A DNA stretch of 35,575 nt. Source: Chloroflexota bacterium (GTDB lineage: Bacteria; Chloroflexota; Dehalococcoidia; SpSt-223). The first letter of the stretch is position 1. Each line of letters opens with the position of its first letter. A model generated the notes under the pieces. It had not been told where the DNA came from. It made no database searches and was given only the letters and a program-made list of their open reading frames with translations. Below are positions 3,681-24,143 of the stretch, in pieces. Made by a program: the position numbers and the translations under genes. The stretch lies in contig JAILZB010000011.1 in NCBI GenBank assembly GCA_023512725.1, forward strand, positions 1 through 35,575, written 5' to 3'.

Positions 3681-5135
3681 ATGAACGTGCTGCTGGTCAA
3701 CCCCAACATCACCATGCCGATCGCGGTGCGGACCTCTCCTCCCCTGGGCATCGCCTACATCGCTGCCATCTCCGAGCGGATGGGCCACCAGGTCCGCGTG
3801 CTCGACATGCAGGTCGACGACACGCCGCTGGAGCAACTGGTCGACGAGTTCCCCCCGGACGTCATCGGCATTACGGCCAATACTCCCCAGGTGAAGGCCG
3901 CCTGGGCAGTCGCCGAGAAGTTCAAGCGGCTCCACCCCTGCCCGATCATGATCGGCGGCCCCCATCCTACCGTGCTGCCGGAGGAGACCCTGCGCCGCTC
4001 CCCGATCGATGTAGTTGCCCGCGGGGAAGGCGAGGCGACCTGGGAGGAGTTCCTCACCGTCGTCGCTCGCACGCCGCGCCACAACAGCGCCGCCCTGGCC
4101 GAGCACCTGGTCGGTGTCAAGGGGATCTCCTTCCGCGGGCCAAGCGGCGAGTTCATCCACGCTCCCGACCGCCCGCCCATCCGGGACCTGGACTCCCTCC
4201 CCTTCCCAGCCTACCACCTGTTCAAGAAAGAGGGCTATACCTCGCTCCAGCCCACGCTGGACGGGGGAACGGCGCGCTCGTTCGCCATGTGCACCTCGCG
4301 CGGCTGCCCCTATCGCTGCACCTACTGCTCCCAGTCGACCTTCCCCGAGAAGTGGCGTGCCCGCTCGGTCGAGAGCGTGATCGCCGAGTTCCGCCACCTC
4401 ATCCATGACCTGGGCGCCACCGAGATCGGGATCGTCGACGACTCCTTCAACATCGACCGCAAGAGAGTGGCCGCCATCTGCGATGCCTTGATCGAATCCG
4501 GGCTGAACACTGTACCGTGGCTGCTGATCAACGGCATCCGCTCTAACCTGGCCGACCGCGAACTGCTGGCGAAGATGAAGGCTGCTGGTTGCAAGCGAGT
4601 CGCGTTCGCTCCCGAGACTGGTAACGAATACATCCTCCAGCGCATCAACAAGAAGCACACCATGAAGCAGGTGCGCGAAGCGTTCGCCAACGCCAAGGCC
4701 GTGGGGATGGAGACGATCGGCTTCTTCATGATCGGCCTGCCCGGCGACACCGAAGAGACGATGGAAGAGACGATCCGCTTCGCCATCGAGCTCGACCCCG
4801 ATGTGGCCAATTTCTCGATGACCACCCCCTTCCCAGGCACCATCCTCTACAACGAAGTCCTGGAGCGGGGGCGGCTACTGATGGACGACTGGGACGACTA
4901 CATCTTCCTGGAGGGCAAAGCCCGCTACGAGCTCGACGTGCCGGCCGAGGTGATGGAGCGGAAGTGGCACGAGGCCTACCGCCGCTTCTACCTCCGACCG
5001 CGACGGATCCTCAAGACACTGGCTCGCCGCTCGACCTGGCAGCAACTCCCCCGGCTGGCCAGTATGGCCGCCAAGCTGGCCATGCCCTACCACCCTGCGC
5101 CCAAGCGACCAAGCAATGTGGAAGTGGCGTGCTAA
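3681..5135 (+). CDS. B12-binding-domain radical SAM protein (paralogue 1)
   Basis: MNVLLVNPNITMPIAVRTSPPLGIAYIAAISERMGHQVRVLD (Rossmann/B12-binding-like), IGGPHPTVLPEE, VARGEGE, and CTSRGCPYRCTYCSQ (CxxxCxxC). Confidence 0.93.
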   Translation: MNVLLVNPNITMPIAVRTSPPLGIAYIAAISERMGHQVRVLDMQVDDTPLEQLVDEFPPDVIGITANTPQVKAAWAVAEKFKRLHPCPIMIGGPHPTVLPEETLRRSPIDVVARGEGEATWEEFLTVVARTPRHNSAALAEHLVGVKGISFRGPSGEFIHAPDRPPIRDLDSLPFPAYHLFKKEGYTSLQPTLDGGTARSFAMCTSRGCPYRCTYCSQSTFPEKWRARSVESVIAEFRHLIHDLGATEIGIVDDSFNIDRKRVAAICDALIESGLNTVPWLLINGIRSNLADRELLAKMKAAGCKRVAFAPETGNEYILQRINKKHTMKQVREAFANAKAVGMETIGFFMIGLPGDTEETMEETIRFAIELDPDVANFSMTTPFPGTILYNEVLERGRLLMDDWDDYIFLEGKARYELDVPAEVMERKWHEAYRRFYLRPRRILKTLARRSTWQQLPRLASMAAKLAMPYHPAPKRPSNVEVAC

Positions 5136-5217
5136 GCGCTCGGCGCAGGATCAGCCGGTGGCCCCAGCAGTGGCCAGCCCAGCGGCTGCGCCCCCGCCAG
5201 CGGCAGGCTTCCGCCGG

Positions 5218-6183
5218 ATGAGCGCCCCGACGGAGCCGATCCGCGTCTCCCTAGGCATCATGGCGCATAACGAGGAGGCAAATATCGGCCGCCTCCTCGA
5301 AGCGCTACTCGCTCAGGAGCTGGCGACCGTCGTCATCAGCGAGATCATCGTCGTCGCCAGCGGCTGCACCGACCGCACCCACGAGATCGTCACCGCGTTC
5401 GCCGCGCGTGACCCCCGGATCCGTCTCCTCGTCCAGCCGGTACGCGAAGGGAAGACGTCGGCCATCAACCTGTTCCTCTCCCACGCCCGCGAGGAGATCG
5501 TGATCGTCCAGAGCGGCGACACCCTCGTGCGCCCCGATACGATCGAGCACCTGATCAAGCCGTTCGCCGACCCCAGCGTCGGGATGACCGGCGCCCAGAA
5601 GGTGCCAGTCAACGCCTCTGACCAGTTCATCGGCTACCTGAGCCACCTCCGCCTCCAGCTCGAACACCAGCTCTGCCTGGAAGTGCCGCGGCTGGGCGAA
5701 CTGATCGCCTTCCGCAAGCTGATCGAGGCGATCCCCCAGGATGTCGCGATGGACGAGGCGTTCATGGAGGCGTTCATCATCCGCCGGGGCTTGCGCGTGC
5801 TCTACGCCCCAAACGCGGTGGTCTACAACATGGGCCCGACCACGGTGGCCGATTTCATCCGCCAGCGCCGGCGCAACTACGCCGGTCACCTTCACCTCAA
5901 GCATAAGTACGGCTACAAGGTGGCAAGCCTGAATAGCCGCATCGTCGCTCGGCTCGCCGCCCGCGAGGTCTACCGCCTGCTGCGCATGTTCGTCTTCATC
6001 TTCTGGGCCGGCGGCCTGGAACTGATCGCCCGCGTGCTGGGAAGCTACGACTACTACATCAAAGGGCGGCGTCACGTGATCTGGGAGATGGCCTGGACAA
6101 CCAAGCGGCTGGACGGCAACGCCCTCTCGCCATTGCCCTCGGCCCCTCCCCCACGCCCACCCGGTCTCCAGGAAGCGCCGTGA
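5218..6183 (+). CDS. Glycosyltransferase family 2
   Basis: VSLGIMAHNEEANIGRLLEALLAQ, EIIVVASGCTDRTHEIV, VQSGDTLVRPDTIEHLI. The longer ORF starts at 5116 and would overlap the previous gene. Confidence 0.88.
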   Translation: MSAPTEPIRVSLGIMAHNEEANIGRLLEALLAQELATVVISEIIVVASGCTDRTHEIVTAFAARDPRIRLLVQPVREGKTSAINLFLSHAREEIVIVQSGDTLVRPDTIEHLIKPFADPSVGMTGAQKVPVNASDQFIGYLSHLRLQLEHQLCLEVPRLGELIAFRKLIEAIPQDVAMDEAFMEAFIIRRGLRVLYAPNAVVYNMGPTTVADFIRQRRRNYAGHLHLKHKYGYKVASLNSRIVARLAAREVYRLLRMFVFIFWAGGLELIARVLGSYDYYIKGRRHVIWEMAWTTKRLDGNALSPLPSAPPPRPPGLQEAP

Positions 6184-7208
6184 AGGGCCTGCCCGGCTTT
6201 GCCCTGCGGCTGGCCCTTGGGCTTGCCCTGGCAGGTTGGCTGGTCTACCAGGAGAACCCCGCAACGATCTGGGCGGCCGCCCAGCGGACGAACCTCGCGG
6301 TGCTGGGGCTGGCCTTCCTGCTCTACCAGCTGGCTATTGCCCTCAACGCCTACAAGTGGGGAGTGCTGCTCCGAGCCCAGGGGGTGACCGTCCCGTTCCC
6401 GCAGCTCCTCCGCTCGACCTTCGTCGGGCTGTTCTTCGGCAACTTCCTGCCCAGCAACGTCGGGGGGGATGCCGTGCGTGCCTTCGACCTCTCGCGCCAG
6501 GCCGGGCGCGGGACGGCCGCCGCCACCTCCGTGATCGTCGACCGGATGACCGGGCTGTTGGTCTTCATCGCCTCCGCGGCCGTCTTTGGGACACTCGCCG
6601 CCCTCTGGACCGGCGCGAGCGTGCTCTGGCAGGTCGCGCTCCTCTCCTTGCTGCTGTTCCTCGGCGGCAGTCTGCTCTTTCTGGCCCTGATCACGCGCTC
6701 GGTCACCCGGCAGGCTCGCTACCTCTTCTTACTCGTGCCCCAACTGCATCCCCTGCGGGCGAGCGGTCGGATGGTGGCCGATGCCTTCGCCGCCTATCGC
6801 CAGCACCCGCGAGCGGTGGCGCTCGCGTGCCTCACCTCTTTCGCCATCCAGACGGTCACCTCGGTCGTTAACTGGCTGATCGGGGTCTCCCTGGGTCTGG
6901 AGGCACCCTTCATCTATTTCTTCGTCTTCAACCCGATCGTCGCCTTCGTGCTGCTGGTGCCCATCGCCATCAACGGGATCGGGGTCCAGCAGGCCATCTA
7001 CGTGTTCTGCTACGCCACCCTCGCCCGGCTGATGAGCGAAACCGAAGCGTTGACGCTGTCACTCCTGATGCATGGCGTTATCATTACGACGGGCTTGCTC
7101 GGCGGCCTGGTATGGATCCGGGCGGTCCGGCGTTCTCGGGCAGGCTGGAACGCTCAACCCGGCACGGCGGTGGCGGCCGTCGGGACGAATGCGGTGGTGA
7201 GAAGGTAA
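6180..7208 (+). CDS. Lysylphosphatidylglycerol synthase TM-region / flippase-like family protein (UPF0104-like)
   Basis: NAYKWGVLLRAQGVTVPFPQLLRSTFVGLFFGNFLPSNVGGDAVRAFDLSR is the signature of this family; multiple TM segments; GTG start overlaps the GT2 stop by 4 nt. Confidence 0.87.
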   Translation: MKGLPGFALRLALGLALAGWLVYQENPATIWAAAQRTNLAVLGLAFLLYQLAIALNAYKWGVLLRAQGVTVPFPQLLRSTFVGLFFGNFLPSNVGGDAVRAFDLSRQAGRGTAAATSVIVDRMTGLLVFIASAAVFGTLAALWTGASVLWQVALLSLLLFLGGSLLFLALITRSVTRQARYLFLLVPQLHPLRASGRMVADAFAAYRQHPRAVALACLTSFAIQTVTSVVNWLIGVSLGLEAPFIYFFVFNPIVAFVLLVPIAINGIGVQQAIYVFCYATLARLMSETEALTLSLLMHGVIITTGLLGGLVWIRAVRRSRAGWNAQPGTAVAAVGTNAVVRR

Positions 7209-7213
7209 AGCCG

Positions 7214-8650
7214 ATGCGCGTCTTGCTCGTCAATCCGCAGTCCAAAGTGTGGACCTCACCCGAGCTGATCCACCTTGGCCTGGCCTACATCGCGGGTGCG
7301 CTTGAAGAGCTGGGCCATACCGTTCGGGTCTATGATGGCGCCGCCGAGACCGAGCCCTACGAGGCTGTTCTGGCCGAGGGCTGGGATGTCGTGGGTGTGA
7401 CTGCCACCACCCCCCAGATCGCTGATGCCTGGTTGGCCGTTGACCAGGCGAAGGCGACCGGCGCCCTCACCATCATGGGCGGTCCCCACCCCACGATCCA
7501 GCCGCTCGAGCAAATCGCCCGGCCGAGCGTCGACCTGGTCGTGCGGGGTGAAGGCGAGCAGCCCGTCCGCGAGCTGTTCCCGCTCCTCGAGCAGCTGAAC
7601 GGGCGCCCGCTCTCGGCCATCGCTGACCAGCTCCGCGAAATCCGCGGCCTGACCGCCAAGCTGGAAACGGGAGAGATCATTCACAACCCGGACCGTCCCT
7701 TCCAGAAAGACCTCTCCCGCTTGCCCCGTCCTGCCTTCCATCTCTTCAAGGTCGAGCGCTACAGCAACCTCCAGCCATTCACCGATGGTCGGCGCAAGGA
7801 GCGCTCCTTCACGATCATGACCTCGCGCGGCTGTCCGCACGCCTGCACCTTCTGCTCGCGCAGCGTCGAGGGACGGACCTGGCGGCCCCGCAAGATCGAC
7901 GAAGTGATCGCGGAATGGCGCTGGTTGATCGAAGAGTGCGGGGCAACCGAGATCGGGGTGGCGGATGATGTGTGGAATCTGCACCTCGCCCGAGCGAAGG
8001 AGCTCTGCCGCGCCCTCATCGCTCACGGGCTGAACCGCGTGCCCTGGGTGACCATCCACGGGATGCGCGCCGATGCCACCGACGAAGAGCTGTTCTTCCT
8101 GATGAAGCAGGCCGGCTGCAAGCGGGTGGGGTTTGGCGTCGAGAGTGGGAACCAGGCCGTGCTCGACCGGATGAAGAAGAAGCAGACCCTCGACCAGGTC
8201 CGTCAGGCCATGCGCAACGCCAAGAAAGCGGGCCTCCAGACCATGGGCTTCTTCATCTTCGGGATGCCCGGCGACACCGAAGAGACGATGGAAGAGACGA
8301 TCCGCTTCGCCATCGAACTGGACCCCGACCTGGCGAACTTTATGATCGCGACACCCTATCCCGGCACCGAACTGTACGACATCATCGTGCGGGAAGGGCA
8401 GTTCCACGTCACCAACTGGGAGGAGCTTGCCATCCACAGCGATCGCGCCCACTTCTCGATCGGGGAGACGCACGCCGCCATTGTGGAGAAGAAGTGGCAC
8501 GAAGCCTACCGCCGCTTCTACCTCCGGCCCAGTCGGCTCTGGCGGCGCGCCCTGATGCTCGATACCTGGCTGCGGCTCCCCTACTACCTCGGGGCGGCGC
8601 GTCGCTTCTTCCTTGCGACTGGCCGCCCAGAATATGTCCAGAGCGTTTAG
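7214..8650 (+). CDS. B12-binding-domain radical SAM protein (paralogue 2)
   Basis: MRVLLVNPQSKVWTSPELIHLGLAYIAGALEELGHTVRVYD, MGGPHPT, VVRGEGE, MTSRGCPHACTFCSRS (CxxxCxxC); close to paralogue 1 throughout. Confidence 0.93.
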   Translation: MRVLLVNPQSKVWTSPELIHLGLAYIAGALEELGHTVRVYDGAAETEPYEAVLAEGWDVVGVTATTPQIADAWLAVDQAKATGALTIMGGPHPTIQPLEQIARPSVDLVVRGEGEQPVRELFPLLEQLNGRPLSAIADQLREIRGLTAKLETGEIIHNPDRPFQKDLSRLPRPAFHLFKVERYSNLQPFTDGRRKERSFTIMTSRGCPHACTFCSRSVEGRTWRPRKIDEVIAEWRWLIEECGATEIGVADDVWNLHLARAKELCRALIAHGLNRVPWVTIHGMRADATDEELFFLMKQAGCKRVGFGVESGNQAVLDRMKKKQTLDQVRQAMRNAKKAGLQTMGFFIFGMPGDTEETMEETIRFAIELDPDLANFMIATPYPGTELYDIIVREGQFHVTNWEELAIHSDRAHFSIGETHAAIVEKKWHEAYRRFYLRPSRLWRRALMLDTWLRLPYYLGAARRFFLATGRPEYVQSV

Positions 8651-8666
8651 CGTTTAGGGCAGGCAG

Positions 8667-9998
8667 ATGGGAAAAGTCGTTCTGGTCTACCCCAAGCGCG
8701 ACGGGCGGGTGCTCGGGCGCGTACCTGGCTCGCCGTACACCTTGATGCGGCTGGCCTCGCTCGTGCCTCCCACCATCCCAGTCGAGATCTGGGACGAGAA
8801 CTGGGCGGACCTCCCCTACCATCGCCTTCGCCCCGGCGACCTCGTGGGCATCACCAGCATGACCAACTCGATCGACCGGGCTCGCCAGATCGGCCTGCGC
8901 GCCCGCGAGCACGGTGCCACCATCGTTGTCGGTGGCGTCCACGCCACCCTCTGCCCGGAGGACGTCGCGCAGTGGGCGGACGTGGTGAACGTGGGCGAGG
9001 CCTACCGCACCTGGCCCCAGATCGTGCAGGACCACTTCTCGGGCGGCGCGCGACCGTTCTACCACGATGACGCCTGGAACAGCCTCGAAGGGGTCGCTCC
9101 GCTGACCGACCACGTGATCGCCCAGGTGCAGGAGAACCACCGCTACTGGACGCCTTACCTGGAGATCACCCGCGGCTGCCCGCGCAACTGCTCCTTCTGC
9201 ACCGCCATCCGGGTCTCGGGGCAGAAGATGCGCTTGCGCCCCATCGAGGAAGTGATCGAAGAGATCCAGCGCCGCCAGATCCGGCGCTTCTTCCTGACGG
9301 ATGACAACTTCGGCTTGAACTTTCGCCTCAACCCCGACTACATCGTGGCGCTGTTCCGCGCCCTGGCTAAGCTCCCCCTGACCGGCTGGACGGCCCAGGC
9401 CGAGCAGATGGTGGGCAAATACCCCGAGCTGCTCGACCTCGCGCGCGAGGCCCACCTGGACAAGTTCTTCATCGGCTTCGAATCGGTCAACCCTCGCAAC
9501 AAGCGCAACCTGGGGGGCAAGGCCCGCGGCCTGCAGGACGAGTACCGCCAAGTGATCAAGACCTGCCACGACCACGGCATCGGCGTCGTCGGGCTGTTCG
9601 TCTTCGGGTTCGATGAGGACACCCTCGAGACCTTCGAGGAGACCTGGAAGTTCATCCGGGAAAGCGAGCTCGACTCGGTGTCGGTCACGGTGCTCACGCC
9701 TTTCCCCGGCACCCCACAGCGTGCCGAGCTGGAACGCGAAGGGCGCTTGCTGGATGTCCCCTGGAGCTACTACGACACTGCCCACGTGACCTTCATTCCG
9801 AAACAGATGACCGTCGAGGAGCTCAAGCAGGGCTACGACTGGCTCTGCCGCAAGGTCTACAGCCCTCACCGCATCATCCAGCGCGGCCTGCGCACGCTCA
9901 GCCGCTACCCGCTGGCACGCCGGAGCCGCAAGCTGATGGTCTCCTTCGGCACCGACCTCGGCTACTGGCGGACGTACCGCTACCGCTACGCCTCCTAG
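8667..9998 (+). CDS. B12-binding-domain radical SAM protein (third, divergent)
   Basis: KVVLVYPKRDG..., VVGGVHATLCPED, ITRGCPRNCSFCTA (CxxxCxxC), FFLTDDNFGLNF; C-terminal region recalls HpnP/DUF4070-type proteins. Confidence 0.9.
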   Translation: MGKVVLVYPKRDGRVLGRVPGSPYTLMRLASLVPPTIPVEIWDENWADLPYHRLRPGDLVGITSMTNSIDRARQIGLRAREHGATIVVGGVHATLCPEDVAQWADVVNVGEAYRTWPQIVQDHFSGGARPFYHDDAWNSLEGVAPLTDHVIAQVQENHRYWTPYLEITRGCPRNCSFCTAIRVSGQKMRLRPIEEVIEEIQRRQIRRFFLTDDNFGLNFRLNPDYIVALFRALAKLPLTGWTAQAEQMVGKYPELLDLAREAHLDKFFIGFESVNPRNKRNLGGKARGLQDEYRQVIKTCHDHGIGVVGLFVFGFDEDTLETFEETWKFIRESELDSVSVTVLTPFPGTPQRAELEREGRLLDVPWSYYDTAHVTFIPKQMTVEELKQGYDWLCRKVYSPHRIIQRGLRTLSRYPLARRSRKLMVSFGTDLGYWRTYRYRYAS

Positions 9999-11518
9999 CT
10001 GCCCTCATCCTGCCAGCCGGCCGGCAGCAAGCGGATGCCGCGCACCTGGAGGTCCTCCCAGCGATTGTTGGCCACCTGGAAGGCGGGCAGCCACTGACCG
10101 ACCCGCAATTCGAGCACATTGCGGCCTGCGCGCAGCACCCCTGGCGGCACGCGGAAGCGCAGCCGGCTCCAATAGGAGGCGTAATCCCAGTCGCGCCCAG
10201 GCCAGTAGGGTGGCACAAGCAGCTCGCCGTTCAACCGGAAGTGGTTCCCGCGGTCGTTGGCCTGGAGCACGATCGCTTCCAGCTCCCAGTCGCCACTCGG
10301 GTCGCGGAGGTAGAACTCTCCCTGCCAGGAGAGCGCAAGCGGACCGAAGCCCCGGATTGGCCGCCAGGGAGCAGCGAGGTCAGGTTGGTCCCCGAGGTGG
10401 ACCGGTACATCGTTCGCGAGCACTTCGACCGGCTGCCGGGAAGCGCCCGGCCAGGTCAGGGGCCAGGGCACAAGCGGGCGGGGCGGGGGCGGCTTCGCCA
10501 TCGCGTGGAGCGCACGCCAGCTCGGTTTCGGCTGGTAGCCCGCTTCCGCCAGCCGAAAGCCGGCCTGGGCGTCGTCATCTGGCTCGTCCGCTCCCAACAC
10601 CCAGACGGCGACCATGCCCAGCCAGGGCCATTCGCGCGCCGCCTGCTGGAAGGCTTCCACCAGGTACGCCCCGCGTTGCTCCTCGCTCACCGCTGGCGCT
10701 CCCACCGGCGAGGTGGGGTCGACCGTCCAGCCCAGCTCAGTGACCCAGACCGGGCGGTCGCCTAGCCCCGCCTCGAGGAGGATGCGACGCTGGTGCTCGA
10801 TCCGGCGGACGTTCAGCCCCTGGTTCGTCTCGGCCGGCACCTGCGGGGGCAGGCCGAAGCCATAGGCATGCACGGCCAGCACGTCGAACTCGCGCCCGCC
10901 CGGGGCAGCGAGCTGACGGCGGAGAAAGATCCGATCGTCCAGTGCTCGCGGGCTCACCTCATTGGTCGGTGCCAGCCCAGCTGCTATCACCAACGCCTGG
11001 GGGTCTGCCTCGCGGACTGCACGCGCTGCGGCGCCGAGCAGGCGGGCATAGCCTTCGGGGTCGGGCGGGTCACCACCCCACTCGTGGGCGAGGTTCGGCT
11101 CGTTCCAGATGATGTACCCCACCACCCGTCCACGGTAGCGCTCAGCAACCCGGCGGACAAAGGCAGAGTAGAGCGTCTCGTCGCGCGGCGGAGCATTGAG
11201 GCGGCCGGGCCGGGCCCAGGCTGGCTGCTGGTCCAGTCGGAAGACCACGTCAAGGCCATAGTAGGCCGCGGCCCGCACCACCTGGTCGGGGTACTCCCAG
11301 TACCATTCCCCAGGCGCCGGCTCGACCTCTCGCCAGCTGAGAAGCTGGATGACCGTGTCGAACCCTGCCTCGGCGATCAAGCGCAGCGGTTGGTCAGCCG
11401 CCCGCACCGTATGGATGGCGTAGCGGAACGGTCGTCCCGGTGGGCGCGTCAGCATGGCGCCGCCAGCCAGCAGCAGCCCAGCAGTGAGGAGCAGCCCGAC
11501 CACGAACACCCGCTTCAT
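9995..11518 (-). CDS. Secreted/membrane-anchored clan GH-A-like glycoside hydrolase with C-terminal beta-sandwich-like region
   Basis: N-terminal hydrophobic segment; TIM-barrel motifs VIQLLSWREVEPAPGEWYWEYPD, GYIIWNEPNLAHEWGG (acid/base NEP), and VWVTELGWT (nucleophile Glu). Confidence 0.78.
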   Translation of the reverse strand: MKRVFVVGLLLTAGLLLAGGAMLTRPPGRPFRYAIHTVRAADQPLRLIAEAGFDTVIQLLSWREVEPAPGEWYWEYPDQVVRAAAYYGLDVVFRLDQQPAWARPGRLNAPPRDETLYSAFVRRVAERYRGRVVGYIIWNEPNLAHEWGGDPPDPEGYARLLGAAARAVREADPQALVIAAGLAPTNEVSPRALDDRIFLRRQLAAPGGREFDVLAVHAYGFGLPPQVPAETNQGLNVRRIEHQRRILLEAGLGDRPVWVTELGWTVDPTSPVGAPAVSEEQRGAYLVEAFQQAAREWPWLGMVAVWVLGADEPDDDAQAGFRLAEAGYQPKPSWRALHAMAKPPPPRPLVPWPLTWPGASRQPVEVLANDVPVHLGDQPDLAAPWRPIRGFGPLALSWQGEFYLRDPSGDWELEAIVLQANDRGNHFRLNGELLVPPYWPGRDWDYASYWSRLRFRVPPGVLRAGRNVLELRVGQWLPAFQVANNRWEDLQVRGIRLLPAGWQDEGS

Positions 11519-13215
11519 CGCAGCCGCCAGACCCCTCGCTCAGTTGCCACTACCAGCTCGCCACTCACCGGATCACGCGCCAGGCTGTTCACGCGCTCAC
11601 CTACCAGGCCAAGGAGTTCCCAACGGCCACCCTGCCAGCGGAACACCCCTGCGTGACTGGTGCCAGCCACTGCGGGCTGGCCATCAGCTCCTGCCAGGAG
11701 CGCGACCACGTGGCGCCCCGCGAGCCCAGCGGGCTGCCACCGTTCCCCCTGCCAGCGAAAGAGCCCGTCGGTGGTGCCGGCAACGAGGCCGGTCGGCGTG
11801 GCCAGGAGAGCCGTAACCGAGCCAGCCAGGGGTGCCAGCGCGCGCCAGCGCGCGCCATCCAACCAGAACACGCCAGCATCGGTGCCCGCCCAGAACGACT
11901 GGCCATCGCTCGCCAGTGCAAAGACGGTCCGCCCCATCAGCCCCTCATCAGCCAGGGACCAGCGCTCACCACCATCGCTGCGAAGGGTGCGGTCATACTC
12001 GACACGCGCCAGCAACGTCTCCCCCCCACGCGCCAGCTGCGGAATGATCGCCTGCTGGTATTCGAACTCCGTCACCGTCTCCCAACTGGCCCCGCCATCG
12101 GTCGAGCGCACCACCCCGCGTTCCCAGGTCCCCGCGAAGAGCTGGCGGCCGGCGGGAAGCACGAAGAGGGTCAGCACCCCGCGCAGGTCGCTGCCGATCG
12201 GGCGCCAGCCCTCCGCCTCGCGGCGGTAGACCCCATCACTAGTGGCAGCGAGGAGGGCATCGCTCGCCGCCAGCCCCCGCACCAGCGGCCGACCATAGCA
12301 CGGCCCGCTCGGCCGCCAGCTTCCTCCCTCTTCCACCAGCACCCCCTGGGCGGTTGCCGCCCAGACGCGCGTCCGCCCTCCAGCGGCATAGACCGTCATC
12401 GCCAGCGGGCTGGCCACCTGTTGCCACTGCTGGCCGCCATCCCGACTGAGGAACACCCCCGCGCCTTCGCTCGTTGCCAGCAGCCCCTCGGGAATCGCCC
12501 CCACGGCAACCACCGGCCTGGGCACCGGCAAGCTCACTTCGGTCCACTCCTCGCCACTCTCACTCCGCCAGAGCGTTCCCTCACTGCGCGCAACCAGGCG
12601 CCCGGCGGCATCGGCTGCCACCGACGAGACCACCCGCGCGAGGGGAAGGACCGCCTGCGGCTGGCCCGCCCGCCAGAGGAGAAGGCCCTCCCCCGCCGTC
12701 GCGAGCACAAGCCCGGCCCGCCCCTCCGCGAGGCCAAGCACCGTCACAAGGGGGTCGAACTGCCAGGCCCGCTGCCAGGAGCGGCCACCGTCCTCTGAGC
12801 GGAGCAGGACCCCCTCCCCACCCGCCCAGACGACCCCATCGCGGCCGACCAGCAAGGCCGTTATGGCCAGGCGAGGCCCAGTTCGCTGCCAGGAGCGGCC
12901 ATCGTCTTCCGTCCGGTAGACCCCATCGACCGTCCCGGCGAAGGCGAGCCCTGGCGTGGGAGCCGCGGCGACGGCGTAGGCAGCGAGGTCTTCCAAGTCG
13001 GCGCTCGCGCTCCAGGCCTCACCCGGTCGCTGGACGTAAACCGCCCCCTCGCGGTAGACCGCCACGTAGACGGTCTCATCTGGTCCGACGGCCAGCCCGG
13101 TTGCGAGGGCATAGCCAGGCAGCCCCTGCTCATCACGTTCCCACTGGGGCGCTGGCGCACGACACGCGCTCAGGCTGAGCACGGCAAGCAGGAGGAGGAG
13201 GCGAAGGGGCGCCAC
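11515..13215 (-). CDS. Lipoprotein beta-propeller with YCF48/Asp-box (BNR/sortilin-like) repeats
   Basis: LSLSAC lipobox; repeated RTEDDGRSWQR, RSEDGGRSWQR, LSRDGGQQWQQ, RSTDGGASWET motifs. Confidence 0.85.
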   Translation of the reverse strand: MAPLRLLLLLAVLSLSACRAPAPQWERDEQGLPGYALATGLAVGPDETVYVAVYREGAVYVQRPGEAWSASADLEDLAAYAVAAAPTPGLAFAGTVDGVYRTEDDGRSWQRTGPRLAITALLVGRDGVVWAGGEGVLLRSEDGGRSWQRAWQFDPLVTVLGLAEGRAGLVLATAGEGLLLWRAGQPQAVLPLARVVSSVAADAAGRLVARSEGTLWRSESGEEWTEVSLPVPRPVVAVGAIPEGLLATSEGAGVFLSRDGGQQWQQVASPLAMTVYAAGGRTRVWAATAQGVLVEEGGSWRPSGPCYGRPLVRGLAASDALLAATSDGVYRREAEGWRPIGSDLRGVLTLFVLPAGRQLFAGTWERGVVRSTDGGASWETVTEFEYQQAIIPQLARGGETLLARVEYDRTLRSDGGERWSLADEGLMGRTVFALASDGQSFWAGTDAGVFWLDGARWRALAPLAGSVTALLATPTGLVAGTTDGLFRWQGERWQPAGLAGRHVVALLAGADGQPAVAGTSHAGVFRWQGGRWELLGLVGERVNSLARDPVSGELVVATERGVWRLR

Positions 13216-14847: not shown

Positions 14848-15681
14848 ATGGTACGCCCACCGTACCGCCTGGAGGACCCCGCCGACCTGCGGGCGCTGCG
14901 CCGCCTCGTCCGCGAAACCACCGGTGCTCCTCGCCCCGCGGCACGCTGGGTCCGCCCCGTGGCGCAGCCATCCCGCTGGCTGGTCGCTCTAGCGGGCACT
15001 TTCAACCCGCCCACCCGGGCTCATCTTGCCTTGCTCGAGGCCGCCCGCGCTGCCGGTGCCGACGCGGTGACATTCGTCGTAGCCGTGGTCAGCATCGAGA
15101 AGGAGCAGCTCAGCGCTGTCCTGCTGGAAGACCGCCTCGCTCTGCTCGACCAGATCGCGGCCCGCCTGGAGGCGGGGCTGGTGCTGACGAACGCCGGCCT
15201 GTATGCGGAGCAAGCAGTGGCCCTGCGGACCCTGCTGCCCACGACAACGCGGCTGAGTTTCATCCTGGGCGCCGATAAGGTGCTCCAAATTTTCGACCCG
15301 CGTTACTACCACGACCGCGATGCTGCCCTCGAGCAGCTCTTCGCTCAGGCTGACCTGCTCGTCGTCCCGCGCGCGGAACTGGAGAGCGAAGCGATCGCGC
15401 GCTTCCTGGCGACACCGCCCGCTGCTCGCTGGCGGCACGCGGTCACGCTCCTCTCCCCACCCGCCAGCCTGGACCGCTGGCTTTCGGCCTCGGCGGTACG
15501 GCGCGGTGAAGTCACGTCGCTGGAGCAGGCCCTTCCTCCCGAGAGCGTGCGCTTCCTCGAGCAGTGGCAGCCGTACCAGCCTGGCAGCTACGAGCGTCGC
15601 CGCGCGCTCCTTGACCAGCTCGAACGCGAGGGCACCTCGGCCTCAGGCGCACCCGCTACCGGGAGCGAGCCTGCCCCGTAA
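14848..15681 (+). CDS. NadD-like nucleotidyltransferase (nicotinate-nucleotide adenylyltransferase-related)
   Basis: LAGTFNPPTRAHLALLEAA, SFILGADKVLQIFDPRYY, LLVVPR, LSASAVRRG. The ORF-track start at 13294 is an antisense extension across the MFS gene. Confidence 0.75.
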   Translation: MVRPPYRLEDPADLRALRRLVRETTGAPRPAARWVRPVAQPSRWLVALAGTFNPPTRAHLALLEAARAAGADAVTFVVAVVSIEKEQLSAVLLEDRLALLDQIAARLEAGLVLTNAGLYAEQAVALRTLLPTTTRLSFILGADKVLQIFDPRYYHDRDAALEQLFAQADLLVVPRAELESEAIARFLATPPAARWRHAVTLLSPPASLDRWLSASAVRRGEVTSLEQALPPESVRFLEQWQPYQPGSYERRRALLDQLEREGTSASGAPATGSEPAP

Positions 15682-16649
15682 CCGGGGCGGGCCCACTGGA
15701 GGGTCGCGCGGGCAAGAGCGGCCGGCTGGAGGTTCGCAACCACGAGCCCGGAGAGCACCAGCACTGCCCCCACCAACTGGAGCACGGTCAGGCGCTCGCC
15801 GAATAGCCCCGCCGAGATGATGGCTGCCGCCACTGGATTGACGTTGTTGAAGAGCGATGCGCGCGAAGGCCCAATGCGGCGGACCCCCTCGTTCCAGGCG
15901 AGGTAGGCCATCACCGAGGCACAGATGCCGGTGTAGAGCACCGCGCCGATGACGGCGAGCTCGAGTGCAGCGGTCGTGAGCGGGCGCGGCTCGAAGGGAA
16001 GGACCGGCAGGCTGATGAGGGCCCCCACGATCACCGTCCAGACCGTGGTATCGAGCAAGCTCAGCCCGCGCCGCTGGGCGAACCGGACGAGCACCGAATA
16101 GGTACCCCAGCTGATCGCCGCCGCCAGGACGAGCAGGTCACCCAGCCCTCGGTTCGGCCCGACCGCAGTCGCCGCCGGACCGGCGAGCACCAGCAGCGCT
16201 ACTCCCACCAGCGCAACGATACCCGCCACCACGCGTCGCAGCGTCACTGGCTCCCGCAGCCACCACGCCGTCAGCAGCATTGCCACGAAGGGGCTCAGGG
16301 CCGTTAGAATAGCCCCCTCGCCAGCGCCCGTGAACTGAAGACCGGCATTGAAGGGCGCAGCAAAGCCGACCACGCCGGTCAGTCCCATCGCGAGCAGGAG
16401 GGGAAGGTCGCGCCGCCGCGGCAGGGGACGCCGCTGCCAGACCAGGAGCAGCGAAAGCACGGTCGCCGCCACCCCGTAGCGAGCGGTGACGAGCATGAGC
16501 AGCGGGATAGCCGCGACCGCGACCTTGACCGCGATCGCGCCGCCGCCCCAGGTGAGGGCCGCCCCGGCGAGCAGCAGGTAGGCGGTCATACCGCCCTGAC
16601 CGGTGGGCGGCTGGCGCATCGCCTGGGTCGGGGAGGGAAGGAGGCTCAC
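15588..16649 (-). CDS. EamA/DMT-family transporter
   Basis: Two EamA-like repeats, ~10 TM segments (AYLLLAGAALTWGGGAIAVKVAV..., LVGAVLVLSGLVVANL). Confidence 0.9.
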   Translation of the reverse strand: MSLLPSPTQAMRQPPTGQGGMTAYLLLAGAALTWGGGAIAVKVAVAAIPLLMLVTARYGVAATVLSLLLVWQRRPLPRRRDLPLLLAMGLTGVVGFAAPFNAGLQFTGAGEGAILTALSPFVAMLLTAWWLREPVTLRRVVAGIVALVGVALLVLAGPAATAVGPNRGLGDLLVLAAAISWGTYSVLVRFAQRRGLSLLDTTVWTVIVGALISLPVLPFEPRPLTTAALELAVIGAVLYTGICASVMAYLAWNEGVRRIGPSRASLFNNVNPVAAAIISAGLFGERLTVLQLVGAVLVLSGLVVANLQPAALARATLQWARPGYGAGSLPVAGAPEAEVPSRSSWSRSARRRS

Positions 16650-17608
16650 CCGACCAGCTCAACCCGCGCGCGCACCTGCTCGACATCACGCGCCATCTGG
16701 TGCACCAGCGCCTCGACATTCTCGAAGCGAAGCTCGCCGCGCAAGCGGGCCAGGAATTCCAGGCGCAGCGTACGGCCGTAGAGATCCCCCTCAAAATCGA
16801 TTAGATACGCCTCGATCAGGCGCTGGAGGTCACGGCCAAAGGTGGGGCGCACCCCGATACTCACCGCTGCCCGGTAGGGAATACCATTGAGCATGGTCCG
16901 GCACGCGTAGATCCCATCAGCGGGGACCACCAGATGCTCCGGCGGCACCAGGTTCGCCGTGGGGTAGCCAAGCTGGCGACCGCGGCGGTCACCGGGGACC
17001 ACCGTTCCCGTGAGGGCGTACGGCCGGCCAAGGGCCCGGGCAGCTTGTTCGACATCCCCAGCCCAGAGCAGATGGCGGATCAGCGAACTGTTCACGGGAA
17101 CGCCATCCAGGAGCACCGGTGGCACCACCGTCAGCTGGAGGCCGAGTTCTTCTGCCAGCGCCCGGAGCCGCTCGCCACTCCCCTCCCGCGCGTGGCCGAT
17201 AGCCGTGTCGGGCCCACCAACGAGCTCGACCATCTGCACCGTGTCTCTCAGGATCACCAGGAACTCCCGCGCCGAAAGGCGCGAGATCGCCAGCGAGAAG
17301 GTCATCGGGCAGACAAAAGCAGCCCCCAGCTGCTGCAACAGCGTAATCCGCTCCTCGAGGGTGCAGAGATAGTGGTAGGGCTTGCCCGGGTTGAACACCA
17401 CGTAGGGCAGCGGGTCGAAGGTGAGGGCGCCAGGAGTAGCCCCCCGGGCGCGTGCCCGCTCCACCGTCGTCCCCACCACCCGCGCGTGCGCGAGATGCAC
17501 GCCATCGAACTTGCCGACCGTGAGGACGGTTGGCCCTCCCGGCGCGACCGCCTGGAGTTCAGCGATCAGCTGCTCCCGCGCCGCGCGGGTGGCTGCATCC
17601 ACACTCAT
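16646..17608 (-). CDS. ribF: Bifunctional riboflavin kinase/FAD synthetase
   Basis: LTVGKFDGVHLAHARVV, FDPLPYVVFNPGKP, GDRRGRQLGYPTANL, GVRPTFG, IEAYLIDFEGDLYGRTLRLEFLARLRGE. Confidence 0.95.
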   Translation of the reverse strand: MSVDAATRAAREQLIAELQAVAPGGPTVLTVGKFDGVHLAHARVVGTTVERARARGATPGALTFDPLPYVVFNPGKPYHYLCTLEERITLLQQLGAAFVCPMTFSLAISRLSAREFLVILRDTVQMVELVGGPDTAIGHAREGSGERLRALAEELGLQLTVVPPVLLDGVPVNSSLIRHLLWAGDVEQAARALGRPYALTGTVVPGDRRGRQLGYPTANLVPPEHLVVPADGIYACRTMLNGIPYRAAVSIGVRPTFGRDLQRLIEAYLIDFEGDLYGRTLRLEFLARLRGELRFENVEALVHQMARDVEQVRARVELVG

Positions 17609-18489
17609 GGACCCTCTTCCTGCGGCCAGACTTTCGTCGGCTGCCAGTATCCATTCGCTGCCTCAAGGATAGCAACCAGTCGCCCACGCTCGTCGATCGC
17701 GGCCGCGCGCGGTTGGGTCGGCTCAGCAGCAAGCGGCTTCCCCTGGCGCAGGCACGCCGCCTCGCGGGCGGTGACGGGGATGAGCAACCAGCCGGCAAGG
17801 GCACGCTCGGGCGGCAGGACCAGCTGGGAGAGGGTGCCGCGGCGGGTTGCTTCCTCTAGCTCGTCCAGTGAATGAGCCTGGGCAAGGGAAAACTCCCCCA
17901 CCGCGAGCCGTCGCAGCTCCAGAACGTGGCCACCAACCCCAAGCCGCTCGCCCAGGTCGCGCGCGATTGAGCGGATGTAGACGCCACTCCCACAGTGGAC
18001 GCGGAGCCGTACCGTCGGCGGGGTGATCGCGAGGGGCGTGATGGCAAACACCACGACCCAGCGAGGCGGGAGTGCCACGTCCCGGCCCGCCCGCGCGAGG
18101 CGATAAGCACGCTCCCCCCCGACCTTGACGGCGCTCACGGCCGGTGGCACCTGCCGGATCTCGCCGACGAACTGCTCGAGCGCGCGTCGGATCTCCTCCG
18201 GGCTCAGCTGGGAGGCATCGACGCGCCGGAGGACGCGCCCCGCAGCGTCGGCAGTATCGGTCGTTACCCCGAGCAGGATCGTCGTCTCATACTGCTTGTC
18301 GGCCCCGCTCAGGTATTCCAGAAGGCGGGTCGCCGGACCGAGCGCGACCACCAGCACCCCGGTGGCCAGAGGGTCGAGCGTGCCAGCGTGGCCGACCCGC
18401 CGGGTCTTGGTCAGCCGGCGGAGGCGCGCCACCACGTCGAAGGAGGTCAGTCCCGCTGGCTTATCGACGACCAGCAGTCCGTTCATCAC
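17605..18489 (-). CDS. truB: tRNA pseudouridine(55) synthase
   Basis: GLLVVDKPAGLTSFDVVARLRRLTKTRRVGHAGTLDPLATGVL; GVYIRSIARDLGERLGVGGHV. Confidence 0.97.
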   Translation of the reverse strand: MMNGLLVVDKPAGLTSFDVVARLRRLTKTRRVGHAGTLDPLATGVLVVALGPATRLLEYLSGADKQYETTILLGVTTDTADAAGRVLRRVDASQLSPEEIRRALEQFVGEIRQVPPAVSAVKVGGERAYRLARAGRDVALPPRWVVVFAITPLAITPPTVRLRVHCGSGVYIRSIARDLGERLGVGGHVLELRRLAVGEFSLAQAHSLDELEEATRRGTLSQLVLPPERALAGWLLIPVTAREAACLRQGKPLAAEPTQPRAAAIDERGRLVAILEAANGYWQPTKVWPQEEGP

Positions 18490-18866
18490 TCGCGCTGCTC
18501 TCCCGGCGTCGGTGGCAGGTGGGAAGCTGCCTGCAACTCGGCCAGCAGCTCGTCGACCCGCCGGCCGCGCTCCAGCGCGGGGTCGATGGCAAAGGCCAGC
18601 TCGGGTACCGTACGCCAGGGCAGGCGGTCGCGCAGCTGGCGCCGGAGATAGCCGGCCGCCTGGCGGAGGGCGGCCAGGGAAGCGGCCTCATCGTTGGCGC
18701 CCCCGTACACGGAGATATACACCCGCGCGTGGCGGAGGTCGGGCGAGGTGACCACGCCCGTCACGCTCACCAGGGTACTCAGGCGGGGGTCGCGCACGTC
18801 CTGGAGGACGAGCGCGCTGATCTCTTCGCGGAGGAGCTCATTCACGCGCTCAATGCGTCGGCTCAT
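18486..18866 (-). CDS. rbfA: Ribosome-binding factor A
   Basis: MSRRIERVNELLREEISALVLQDVRDPRLSTLVSVTGVVTSPDLRHARVYISVYG; internal start chosen. Confidence 0.95.
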   Translation of the reverse strand: MSRRIERVNELLREEISALVLQDVRDPRLSTLVSVTGVVTSPDLRHARVYISVYGGANDEAASLAALRQAAGYLRRQLRDRLPWRTVPELAFAIDPALERGRRVDELLAELQAASHLPPTPGEQRE

Positions 18867-18976
18867 GGAAACCCTCCTGCAGCGGAGCGGGGCCGCTCGG
18901 GCGAAAGGGAGAAGCAGGCCTGCTACGGCGGCCGCTTCCTGGCAGGCTCCGGCCACGCGAACGGTGGCCGCCAAGG

Positions 18977-20887
18977 TTAGCTGGTTCGCAGGGGGGGAGC
19001 GGCGCGCTCCATGGTGTAGAACTCGATGATGTCGCCGACCTCGAAGCGGTCAAAGTCTTCCAGGGTCAGGCCGCATTCGTAGCCCTCGCGGACCTCGCGG
19101 ACGTCATCCTTGAACCGCTTGAGGGTAGCAACCTTCCCCTCGTAGACCAGATCTTTGCCGCGCCGGATGCGGGCCAGGCTGTTGCGGGTCACCACGCCAT
19201 CGCGGACGTAGCAGCCCGCGATCGCAGTCCGCCCACCCAGCCGGAAGAGCTGGCGCACCTCGGCATGCCCCTGGATCTGCTCGACATAGCGCTCCTCCTG
19301 GAGGCCCGCGAGCGAGCGGGCGATATCGTCAGCGACTTCATAGATGACCTGGTAGTAGCGGATATCTACCCCGTACTGCTCGGCGAGGCTGCGCGCTCCC
19401 GCATCGGGGCGGACGTTAAAGCCCACGATGATCCCTTTCGAGGCGATGGCCAGGTTGACGTCCGACTCCGTGATAACCCCCGTTGCCGCGTGGATCACCC
19501 GCACCCGCACGTTGTCGCCCGTGATGCGCTCCAGCACAGCGCGCAGGGGCTCAATCGAGCCCTGGACATCGGTCTTGAGGATGATATTCAGCTCACGCGG
19601 CCCACTGCTCTGGCTGGTCAGCAGTTCCTCCAGGGAGACTGCTCGCCCACCCCAGAGGGGCTCGCGGCGGCGCTCCTGGAGGCGGCGTTCCACCAGCTCC
19701 CGGGCTTCCTTCTCGTCAGCGACCACCTGGAAGGGATCGCCGGGGGTAGGGGCATCCTCCAGGCCCAACACCTGGACGGGGGTCGACGGCCCTGCCTCGC
19801 GCAGTGCTTGCCCGCGGTCGTTCAGCATGGCGCGGATGCGCCCCCAGGTCTCACCGGCTACCACCACGTCGCCGCGCCGCAACGTCCCGCGCTTGACCAG
19901 CAAGGTGGCTACCGCTCCCCGGCTCTTATCGATCCGCGCTTCCAGCACGGTGCCCGCAGCGGGGGCATTCGGGTTGGCCTTCAGCTCCAGCAAATCAGCT
20001 AGAAGCAGGATCACCTCCAGGAGGTCGGCGATCCCTTGCCCCGTGCGCGCCGAGACGAGCACGGCAGGCACATCGCCCCCGTACTCTTCCACCACCACTC
20101 CTGCCTCGGCGAGCTCGGTCTTGACCCGCTCTGGGTTCGCATCCGGGCGGTCGATCTTGTTGATCGCCACCACCATCGCCACGCCCGCCGCCTTCGCGTG
20201 GGCGATCGCCTCGCGGGTCTGCGGCATGACACCGTCGTCAGCGGCTACCACGATCACCGCGATGTCCGTCGTCCGGGCGCCCCGCGCGCGCATGGCGGTG
20301 AAGGCCTCGTGACCCGGCGTGTCGATGAAGGTCACCAGCCGGCCACCGACCTCCACCTGATAGGCACCGATGTGCTGGGTGATCCCGCCCGCCTCGCCAG
20401 CAGCCACATTCGCCTTGCGGATGGCATCCAGGAGCGACGTCTTGCCGTGGTCGACGTGGCCCATGACGGTCACGACCGGGGGGCGGGGGACGAGGGAGGT
20501 GGGGTCATCCTCGCCGGGGGGCAGGGTGGGAGCAGCTGCCTCCTCCAGTTGCTCCTGCTCTTCCACCACGGTAAAGCCTAACTCTTGTGCCACCCGGGCT
20601 GCCGTCTCGTAGTCGAGGGTCTGGTTGAGGGCGGCCATCACCCCGCCCTTCATCAGTTGCTTGATCACGTCGATCCCGCTGACCCCCAGCAGCTCGGCCA
20701 GCTCAGCCACCGTAATGACGCGCGGGAGGGTGAGCGGTCCCGCCGACCGCGTGGTGGCGGGAGGCGCCGGTCGTGAGGAAGCAACGGCGGCGGGACGGCC
20801 ACCGCGCGCTGCCGGTGGGGTCGAGGCGTTTCCCCGACGCTGGGAAGCGGTTCCCCCACGCTGTCCGTTGGACCGTGAATTTGCCAT
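18977..20887 (-). CDS. infB: Translation initiation factor IF-2
   Basis: IF2_N motif and [52 protein letters not shown]. Confidence 0.98.
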
Positions 20888-20979
20888 GCGACCTCCTCGT
20901 GCGCCTCGCACACGCGGGACGCGGAATCTTCGAACGTGCTCGGCCGGGGGGCGAGGGCGGCCACCGCCCGACCAGGTCC

Positions 20980-21282
20980 TTATGGGGCCGGAGCGGCCTC
21001 CGGATAGGTTGCGGCCTGTTCGCGTAGCCGCGTCACCTCTTCGGGACTGAGCCGGGCCTTGAGTGCCTGCTCCAGGCTCCCGCGACGGAGCGCCATCTCC
21101 CAGCAGGGCCGCAACGGGCAGAGATAGGCGCCCCGCCCAGGGTGCTTGCCGGTCGGGTCGACGACCACCGCCCCCGTGCGGTCACGCACCAGCCGGACGA
21201 GCGCCCGCTTCGCAGACGATTGTCGGCAGGCAACGCACATCCGGATGGGGATGTGTCGGGTGCGCCGGGGCCCACCAGCCAT
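20980..21282 (-). CDS. ylxR: YlxR (DUF448) family RNA-binding protein
   Basis: IPIRMCVACRQSSAKRALVRLVRD...GKHPGRGAYLCPLRPCWEMALRR, between nusA and infB. Confidence 0.94.
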   Translation of the reverse strand: MAGGPRRTRHIPIRMCVACRQSSAKRALVRLVRDRTGAVVVDPTGKHPGRGAYLCPLRPCWEMALRRGSLEQALKARLSPEEVTRLREQAATYPEAAPAP

Positions 21283-21285
21283 CGC

Positions 21286-22770
21286 TTAGCGGATCCGGCG
21301 GAGGATATCTTCGTACTCCGCCTCCTCGTCGTCTTCTTCGAAGTAAACGCGCTGGCGCCGCGGCCCTTTCTTGGCCGGCTTGGCGGGCTCTTCCTCCTCG
21401 CGGCCGCGCTCGCGCCCCTTCTTGCGTCCGCCCACTTCGCCGAGGATCTCCTCGGCAAAGCGGATCCGGCCCCGCTCGGCCGGCGGCGTGAGCAGCAACT
21501 CCTCCATGGTCATGCCGGTCTCGTCGAACTCCTCGACCGGCTCTTCCTCCGGTGCGGCTACCTCCGGTGCCGCTTCTGCCACGGGTGCGGCGAGCGTTGG
21601 AACCTCCACAGGGGCCACCGGCACCACCGGCTCGGCTGGGGGTGCTGACGCTGGCACCACCTCCGCCACCGGTGCTGGCTCACCGCGGGCCGCACGCTCG
21701 GCCTCCTCGCGGGCCAGCCTCTCGGCTTCCTCCTCACGGAAGGCCGAGAGGCTCTTGATATCGATCCGCCAGCCAGTGAGCTTAGCGGCGAGGCGCGCGT
21801 TCTGCCCCTCTTTGCCGATCGCAAGCGAGAGCTGACGGTCCGGGACCACGCAGGTTGCCGTTTTCTCCTCTTCGTTGATCACCACCCGAAGGACCTGAGC
21901 GGGGCTGAGCGCCTTGGCGACGAACATCGCCGGGTCGGGGTGCCATTCGACGACGTCGATCTTCTCGCCGTTCACCTCGTTGACGATGTTCTGGATTCGG
22001 ATGCCGCGTAGCCCGACACAGGCTCCCACCGGGTCGACCCCAGGCTGGCGGGCCGCAACGGCAACCTTGCTCCGCGAGCCCGCCTCACGCGCGATCCCTT
22101 TGATCTCGACGATGCCATTGGCGATCTCGGGAACTTCCAGTTCGAAGAGCCGCCGCAGCAGGTTGCGATGGGTGCGTGAAGCGATCAACTGAGGCCCTTT
22201 GGGCGTCCGGTTCACTTCGACCAGGTAGGCCTTGATCCGCTGGCCAACCCGGTAGGTCTCGCCGGGCACCTGTTCGCTGGCGGGGAGCACTGCCTCAGCG
22301 CGGGGCAGACCGATGATCAACCGGTTCGGCTCGACCCGCTGGACGATCCCCGTGATGATCTCTCCTTCACGGTCGGTGTACTCGTCGTAGACGACCTCCC
22401 GCTCGGCCTCGCGCAGGCGCTGCATGATCACCTGCTTGGCCGTCTGGGCGGCGATCCGTCCGAACTCCTTGGGGGTCCGGTCCTCCTCAACCTGCTCCCC
22501 AACGCGGGGCTGGCGGCCGAGCAACCGCTTGGCCTCCTCAACGCTGATCTCCAGCGCCGGGTCGGTCACCGCTTCGACGACCGTCCGGCGGACCAGGACT
22601 TTCGGCTGCCCGCTCATCGAGTCGAGGCGAACGATGACCTCCTGATTGCTGCCAAAGTTTTTCTTGTACGCCGAAGCCAGGGCGGCTTCGAGGGCCTCGA
22701 TCACTACCTCTTTCGAGAGGTTCTTTTCCGCGCACAGCTGGGTGATAGCGATCAAAAAGTCGTTCTTCAT
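21286..22770 (-). CDS. nusA: Transcription termination/antitermination protein NusA with extended acidic C-terminal tail
   Basis: [38 protein letters not shown]1 and KH motifs ([29 protein letters not shown]). Confidence 0.97.
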
Positions 22771-22854
22771 GCCCGCCCGAACCCTCCATAGGCGCCAACC
22801 AGGACCGCCCTCCCGGGCCAGTGCGGCCCGCCAGCGACGGACCGTACGGCTACG

Positions 22855-22879
22855 AAAAAGAGTGGGGTTCACCCACTCT
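22855..22879 (-). terminator. Intrinsic-terminator-like hairpin in nusA 5' leader (candidate attenuator)
   Basis: Minus strand AGAGTGGG-tgaac-CCCACTCT followed by TTTTC; 8-bp perfect stem, 5-nt loop, short T-tract. Confidence 0.6.
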
Positions 22880-22914
22880 CTCACACCAAAGACGCCCGGC
22901 GAGTTGTCCTTCTG

Positions 22915-22944
22915 AGTATAGCAAGGTGCCTTTTCGGCTGTCAA
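22915..22944 (-). promoter_or_regulatory. Near-consensus sigma70 promoter for the nusA operon
   Basis: Minus strand TTGACA (22944-22939) N18 TATACT (22920-22915). Confidence 0.82.
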
Positions 22945-23024
22945 TCAGGGGAGCAGGGAAGGAGTTGTCACCAGAATAGTCAATTGGTGCAGCTACTCGC
23001 CAGCTAATGGGGATCTCACTTGAC

Positions 23025-23053
23025 TTGCTGACCCCAGGGGACTAGTGTAGTAT
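23025..23053 (+). promoter_or_regulatory. Sigma70 promoter candidate for the desulforedoxin-like pair
   Basis: TTGCTG N17 TAGTAT, ~30 nt upstream of the TTG start at 23082. Confidence 0.55.
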
Positions 23054-23081
23054 CGGCCTAGCGTACGCCTGGAGGACGAGC

Positions 23082-23201
23082 TTGGCAACCGAGCTTGGGA
23101 AACGCTACCGCTGTCCGGTCTGTCAGACGGAAGTGATTGTGACCCGCAAGGGCACCGGCGACCTGACGTGCTGCAATACGCCGATGGAGCTCAAGAAATG
23201 A
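23082..23201 (+). CDS. Desulforedoxin-like mini-protein 1 (39 aa; not in ORF track)
   Basis: TTG start after GGAGGA; reads (M)ATELGKRYRCPVCQTEVIVTRKGTGDLTCCNTPMELKK*, C-x2-C-x15-CC motif. Confidence 0.83.
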   Translation: MATELGKRYRCPVCQTEVIVTRKGTGDLTCCNTPMELKK

Positions 23202-23359
23202 CTGAGGAACCCGACGTCCGCAATGAGCTGGGCAAACGGTTCCACTGCCAGGAATGTAACGCCGAGGTGTTGGTGACAAAGGCTGGCCCTGGGCGCGTGC
23301 ACTGCTGCAACAAGCCGATGGAGGTCCTGCGGCCACGAGCGTTGCCCTCCTCGGACTAG
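23198..23359 (+). CDS. Desulforedoxin-like mini-protein 2 (53 aa)
   Basis: ATG overlaps previous stop (ATGA); MTEEPDVRNELGKRFHCQECNAEVLVTKAGPGRVHCCNKPMEVLRPRALPSSD*, same C-x2-C-x15-CC spacing. Confidence 0.85.
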   Translation: MTEEPDVRNELGKRFHCQECNAEVLVTKAGPGRVHCCNKPMEVLRPRALPSSD

Positions 23360-23405
23360 CCCCTCTCCCCTGGGCAAGCCGGCAGGCGCGCTGAGGGCGT
23401 TCTCG

Positions 23406-24029: not shown

Positions 24030-24115
24030 GGCCTCGTCACCACCTCTCTGGCATCGCGCTTGCACCAGCCACTCTGCCAGGCGGCTGACCAGCTGGTTCT
24101 CCCGAAAACGGGGCG

Positions 24116-24143
24116 ATTATATCCATCATCCGCGGCGGCGCAA
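24116..24143 (-). promoter_or_regulatory. Sigma70 promoter candidate for the SH3-like gene
   Basis: Minus strand TTGCGC N16 TATAAT (perfect -10). Confidence 0.6.

Follow-up and report, generated by a model that had tools for sequence, protein, structure and literature searches.

The gene cluster and its surroundings

The window, meaning the whole stretch of 35,575 nucleotides analysed here, is contig C12 of a Chloroflexota MAG (G000) that comprises 4.08 Mb in 461 contigs and is about 91% complete. Five intact, collinear and tightly packed open reading frames occupy positions 3681-9998 of its + strand. The first, RSAM1 (3681..5135, 484 aa), encodes a B12-binding and radical SAM enzyme (Pfam PF02310, 86.3 bits; PF04055, 105 bits). 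It is followed by a GT2 family glycosyltransferase (5218..6183, 321 aa; PF00535, 83 bits); a flippase-like polytopic membrane protein of the LPG_synthase_TM/UPF0104/TIGR00374 type, hereafter LPG-TM (6180..7208, 342 aa; PF03706, 129 bits); RSAM2 (7214..8650, 478 aa), again with B12-binding and radical SAM domains (PF02310, 63.9 bits; PF04055, 94.8 bits); and RSAM3 (8667..9998, 443 aa), a radical SAM enzyme with a weak B12-binding segment and a DUF4070 match (PF04055, 75.5 bits). The GT2 start at 5218 is backed by the gene of a sister species, and a longer open reading frame is possible from 5116.

The junctions between successive genes measure +82, -4, +5 and +16 nt, which confirms the run of five same-strand genes with short junctions described in a sequence-only reading of this DNA. 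The order is operon-like, and the five genes are probably transcribed as one operon. Between the window genome and the congeneric sister species G001, dN/dS is 0.04 for RSAM1, 0.11 for GT2, 0.21 for LPG-TM, 0.05 for RSAM2 and 0.06 for RSAM3, indicating purifying selection on all five genes. The recurrence of the five-gene order in G001, together with these low values between the two species, shows that the cluster is not a product of chance.

Upstream lies a gene for a large membrane protein (448-2265) that is not conserved with the cluster and resembles the LA_3751/LA_3752 putative glycosyltransferase family below the cut-off (152 of 200 bits). Downstream, a block on the - strand (9995-13215) encodes a GH5/GH39-like secreted protein and a BNR-repeat protein; it is convergent with RSAM3 and overlaps the end of that gene by 4 bases. 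A housekeeping block, also on the - strand, extends from 15588 to 25183 and includes an EamA transporter, RibF, TruB, IF-2, NusA and RNase PH. The other window genes tested have no match in the 19.5 kb G001 locus, and the flanks of the two clusters differ.

The encoded proteins

The sequence-only reading had assigned a B12-binding segment and a CxxxCxxC site to all three radical SAM enzymes. This stands firmly for RSAM1 and RSAM2, in which PF02310 is clear, while in RSAM3 the B12 domain is borderline (31.5 bits against a cut-off of 32.1) beside a DUF4070 match of 30.7 bits (cut-off 22). The arrangement is that of class B radical SAM enzymes, with PF02310 N-terminal to PF04055 and a CxxxCxxC motif, the B12 part of RSAM3 being marginal. 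The motif cysteines of RSAM1 (C209, C213 and C216) are invariant in a 40-sequence alignment of RSAM1 and RSAM2, and an AlphaFold2 model of RSAM1 (pLDDT 89.8) has a complete B12-Rossmann and radical-SAM barrel architecture. RSAM1 and RSAM2 would accordingly be candidates for cobalamin binding and use, as judged from their domains. AprD4-like enzymes, however, retain the B12 fold without using B12.

The fold matches of the RSAM1 model are led by MgmA, a protein methylase, with AprD4 second; TsrM, CysS and OxsB also appear. AprD4, a radical SAM 1,2-diol dehydratase that acts on the aminosugar paromamine, is in addition the PDB entry closest to RSAM1 in sequence, at about 22% identity, which is a superfamily-level likeness. 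RSAM2 is a paralogue of RSAM1, with 48% identity. The best NCBIfam models for both are HpnJ and BchE (E about 1e-54 to 1e-59), yet RSAM1 and RSAM2 score 199 and 189 bits against the HpnJ cut-off of 577.6 (TIGR03471), and 200 and 185 bits against the BchE cut-off of 481 (TIGR02026). They likewise fall short of the ladderane-type lipid family TIGR04072 (118 and 120 bits; cut-off 360) and of the AprD4 family NF033070 (100-114; cut-off 500). Membership in the HpnJ, BchE, HpnR, ladderane and AprD4 families was rejected, every curated cut-off being missed widely. No curated family fits these enzymes, which appear to lie outside any family of assigned function.

By both sequence and fold, the closest PDB match of the GT2 (model pLDDT 76, moderate) is PcManGT (6yv7), a mannosyltransferase of lipid-linked glycans. 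The GT2 has the features of the cellulose-synthase-like or PcManGT type: a GT-A fold, a DxD-type acid, an acceptor-site acid, a Q/RxxR motif and a C-terminal membrane segment. Its invariant motifs are D101, D179-E180 and Q216-R219 (QRRR), and the hydrophobic C-terminal segment spans residues 257-275. LPG-TM scores 76 bits against TIGR00374 (cut-off 43) and has many hydrophobic segments. A role in flipping lipid-linked saccharides has been proposed for PF03706 proteins, and in AglD a glycosyltransferase is fused to such a domain (PMC5898192). LPG-TM may therefore flip a lipid, to judge by its family.

Distribution and linkage in related genomes

In the sister species G001 (L039, 5950-12205), the five-gene order is repeated at 67-91% identity. 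G002, a third species of the window's genus (80% complete), has no matches to RSAM2, RSAM3 or GT2, and a search of 60 relatives returned close RSAM1 orthologues in G001 only. Across 400 sampled Chloroflexota genomes, close RSAM1 is found in five (G000, G061, G069, G073 and G234), at 51-61% identity in the four other than G000; the sixth match, in G341, drops to 41%. Exactly the same five genomes carry the GT2 at 55% identity or more, the next best GT2 reaching at most 47%. This co-occurrence is strong but does not amount to five independent events, since the 55% line was chosen after the gap was seen and G061 and G073 belong to one genus.

A scan of the genome collection gave nine further Chloroflexota RSAM1 loci at 51-59% identity among the matches listed (L040-L048, of which L040 comes from the same assembly as G073 and was counted once), and matches outside the phylum reached at most 40% among those listed. 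RSAM1 is present in at least 14 distinct genomes, all of them Chloroflexota. Within these 14, RSAM2 occurs in 12 (once as a contig-end fragment) and the close GT2 in 11, and the three genes co-occur even where they are unlinked. RSAM3 is more restricted: orthologues (60-84%) were found only in G001, G234 and G446, and it adjoins RSAM2 in all four genomes, including that of the window. The cluster is patchy rather than general in Chloroflexota. A literature search found no relevant publication on such a gene cluster.

The genes also recur in partial combinations. RSAM1 and GT2 are adjacent in 6 of the 14 genomes, and GT2 and LPG-TM in 9 of the 11 that have the close GT2. G073 and G442 carry RSAM1-GT2-LPG as an unbroken run, and G441 almost does; in G061, RSAM1-GT2 runs to the contig end; GT2-LPG stands by itself in G443, G445, G446 and G234; and the full five-gene form is that of G000 and G001. 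RSAM2 is separate in G440, G441 and G442, where it adjoins an HD phosphohydrolase, and the same phosphohydrolase adjoins LPG-GT2 in G445 and G234. RSAM1 and RSAM2 share one cluster with more radical SAM genes in G445, G446 and G234, with RSAM3 in two of the three, and in G444 RSAM2 lies in a comparable cluster, RSAM1 being on a different contig. These overlapping subsets (RSAM1-GT2-LPG; GT2-LPG-HD; RSAM2-HD; RSAM1...RSAM3-RSAM2) link the genes as one pathway independently of any single operon. In the related loci, genes were called by a simple codon-usage method, which may miss genes or misplace their starts.

Several other genes lie near members of the set. The HD phosphohydrolase (L174 6652-7269, L172 7417-8022, L173 6081-6689, L199 about 7177-7791 and L202 10692-11342) was rejected as a core gene, being absent from G000, G001 and G002. 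In Anaerolineae/Caldilineae-type genomes, radical SAM genes are clustered in groups of five to eight (L177 1773-12474, L180 4624-17655, L128 5499-15860 and L176 195-8063); the groups comprise rSAM_A, RSAM1, RSAM1b, a SPASM-type gene, rSAM_C, RSAM3, RSAM2 and rSAM_E, with RSAM2 present throughout and RSAM1 in most. A type I phosphodiesterase (PF01663; L199 5690-7033) lies near GT2-LPG, and a protein resembling it by look alone (L228 12370-13512) adjoins an RSAM1 relative. A wider GT2 subfamily, 42-51% identical to this GT2, is paired with the SPASM-type rSAM_E in 9 of the 12 loci read (L232, L234, L235, L237, L238, L240 and L203-L205), forming a second uncharacterised association of GT2 and radical SAM genes. 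The rSAM_E gene was rejected as a core component: each of the 15 genomes searched has it, even G002, which lacks the cluster, and in the window's genus it is unlinked.

Evolution of the cluster

When RSAM1 and RSAM2 are placed in a tree with distant relatives, RSAM1 forms one clade (support 98/95) and RSAM2 another (100/100), and the two clades are sisters (100/100). The pair thus derives from one duplication that preceded the split of the sampled lineages. Across genomes, the pairwise distances for RSAM1, RSAM2 and GT2 are correlated (r = 0.84-0.87), a result compatible with joint inheritance but also expected from plain vertical descent. Within the window's class the cluster is confined to a single genus, a pattern suggestive of horizontal transfer.

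A proposed pathway and its alternatives

That the five genes constitute a real, conserved and uncharacterised pathway, common to a few distant relatives, is well supported. The sequence-only reading had proposed such a pathway of B12-type radical SAM enzymes with a GT2 and a UPF0104-like protein, and the conserved synteny and the want of an assigned family for the radical SAM enzymes bear it out. The gene order extends beyond the window's genome to G001, with subsets elsewhere; across Chloroflexota the genes are spread only patchily (close RSAM1 and GT2 in 5 of 400 sampled genomes).

The best explanation, at about even odds, is that the five genes together build an unusual lipid-linked glycan in a few steps. 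The model draws on the architecture of the radical SAM enzymes, the AprD4 matches of RSAM1, the glycan context of their relatives, the PcManGT-like GT2 and the proposed flippase role of PF03706 proteins. The GT2, of GT-A fold and presumably tethered to the membrane on its cytoplasmic side, would use a nucleotide sugar to glycosylate a membrane lipid or a polyprenyl carrier. RSAM1 and RSAM2 would then successively modify the sugar or polyol head group by C-methylation, dehydration or ring contraction, RSAM3 would make a further, lineage-restricted modification, and LPG-TM would carry the product to the outer leaflet. The substrate, the order of steps and the type of radical reaction are all putative here, as are the glycolipid product and the choice between methylation and rearrangement that the earlier reading had raised. 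More tentatively, the lipid-linked sugar formed by the GT2 might be the substrate of RSAM1 and RSAM2, working one after the other or as a heteromer. The product would be a carbocyclic or C-branched head group of a kind not described in bacteria, and in some lineages it might be elaborated further by seven to eight clustered radical SAM enzymes; we consider this scenario somewhat improbable.

The glycan context comes from chloroflexotal and archaeal relatives of RSAM1 at roughly 35-40% identity, about 10 of whose 14 loci read were judged to be surface-glycan loci. Pfam searches of 64 neighbours from nine such loci found about 15 GT1-type and 7 GT2 transferases, 7 sugar epimerase/dehydratases, 4 DegT aminotransferases and 2 UDP-GlcNAc 2-epimerases, a count that is biased by the choice of loci, since these had already been read as glycan-like and L049, L051, L056 and L057 were left out. 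This context points to the sugar part rather than the lipid tail as the probable target, with the caveat that the relatives are too distant to guarantee the same substrate. Several observations count against the lipid-linked glycan model. The cluster contains no nucleotide-sugar gene, carrier-lipid gene or ligase, the B12 domain of RSAM3 is marginal, and the window has no cobalamin riboswitch or other Rfam match. A sugar substrate is also questioned by the top rank of the protein methylase MgmA among the RSAM1 fold matches, the likeness to AprD4 being at superfamily level.

The radical SAM enzymes could instead modify the hydrophobic lipid part by alkyl or isoprenoid methylation, cyclisation or cross-linking (cf. 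GrsA/B, Tes, Gms and Mss), with the GT2 and LPG-TM only adding and flipping a head group. Several radical SAM enzymes do act on lipid tails, Tes homologues have been reported in many Chloroflexota MAGs (PMC11868695), the cluster supplies membrane partners, and RSAM1 and RSAM2 have a weak superfamily likeness to TIGR04072, whose members are B12 radical SAM enzymes of lipid biosynthesis. That likeness amounts to 118-120 bits against a cut-off of 360, however; no solved Tes structure is among the RSAM1 fold matches listed, and the distant homologues mostly sit beside sugar enzymes rather than lipid-core enzymes, leaving tail modification unlikely. We assign a similarly low probability to RSAM1 and RSAM2 working ahead of the GT2, with a soluble nucleotide sugar or a free small molecule as their substrate, in which case the novelty would be an unusual donor sugar. 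AprD4-like folds accept aminosugars, and UDP-GlcNAc 2-epimerase, DegT and SDR genes adjoin distant RSAM1 homologues (L132, L228-L231), but the core cluster lacks an NDP-sugar enzyme and carries the membrane GT2-LPG pair instead.

A hopanoid or bacteriochlorophyll-type pathway, with RSAM1 and RSAM2 as HpnJ or BchE orthologues, is highly improbable: these are their best NCBIfam models, but scores of 185-200 bits against cut-offs of 578 and 481 refute membership. The earlier remark that the window has no hopanoid cyclase extends to the whole genome and both sister species, with no squalene-hopene cyclase match (PF13243) in G000, G001 or G002 (MAGs 80-96% complete); a full-length copy was found in only one genome searched, G445. 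HpnJ-like ring-contraction chemistry is possible for RSAM1 and RSAM2.

The cluster is a compact, conserved and transferable gene set of uncultured Chloroflexota, the core of which is RSAM1, RSAM2, GT2 and LPG-TM. It is small enough to be studied in a heterologous host, where a new head group of membrane lipids or a lipid biomarker might come to light.

Comparison with known systems

To our knowledge, radical SAM chemistry on lipid-linked glycans is represented by very few systems, those of hopanoid cyclitol ethers and archaeal calditol. In the HpnI-HpnK-HpnJ pathway to bacteriohopane cyclitol ether, a GT2 and a B12-type radical SAM enzyme act on a lipid-linked sugar, and the present cluster likewise joins a GT2 glycosyltransferase to B12-type radical SAM enzymes. 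In contrast to that pathway, RSAM1 and RSAM2 reach about one third of the score required for HpnJ, the GT2 scores 23 bits against an HpnI cut-off of 310, and the cluster has no hopene cyclase, two paralogous radical SAM enzymes and a flippase-like partner. The calditol synthase Cds of Sulfolobales uses radical SAM chemistry to contract the ring of a sugar head group that a glycosyltransferase has first put in place (PMC9385802). Compared by description, the cluster differs from Cds in being bacterial and in having two paralogues and a linked flippase-like protein.

Single components have counterparts elsewhere. AglD-type archaeal N-glycosylation proteins also partner a GT2 with a UPF0104/PF03706 domain (PMC5898192), but here the two are separate genes rather than a fusion and are linked to B12-type radical SAM enzymes. 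AprD4 shares the overall architecture of RSAM1 and has a sugar as its substrate, whereas the two proteins are only about 22% identical and the family score (NF033070) is 100-114 against 500. The GT2-rSAM_E pair of Chloroflexota similarly places a related GT2 (42-51%) next to a radical SAM gene, but rSAM_E is of the SPASM rather than the B12 type, and the pair is more widely spread and mostly without RSAM1, RSAM2 or LPG-TM. The cluster is an uncharacterised pathway built from known superfamilies. By analogy, it would work most like the HpnJ and calditol systems, through radical SAM remodelling of a sugar head group.
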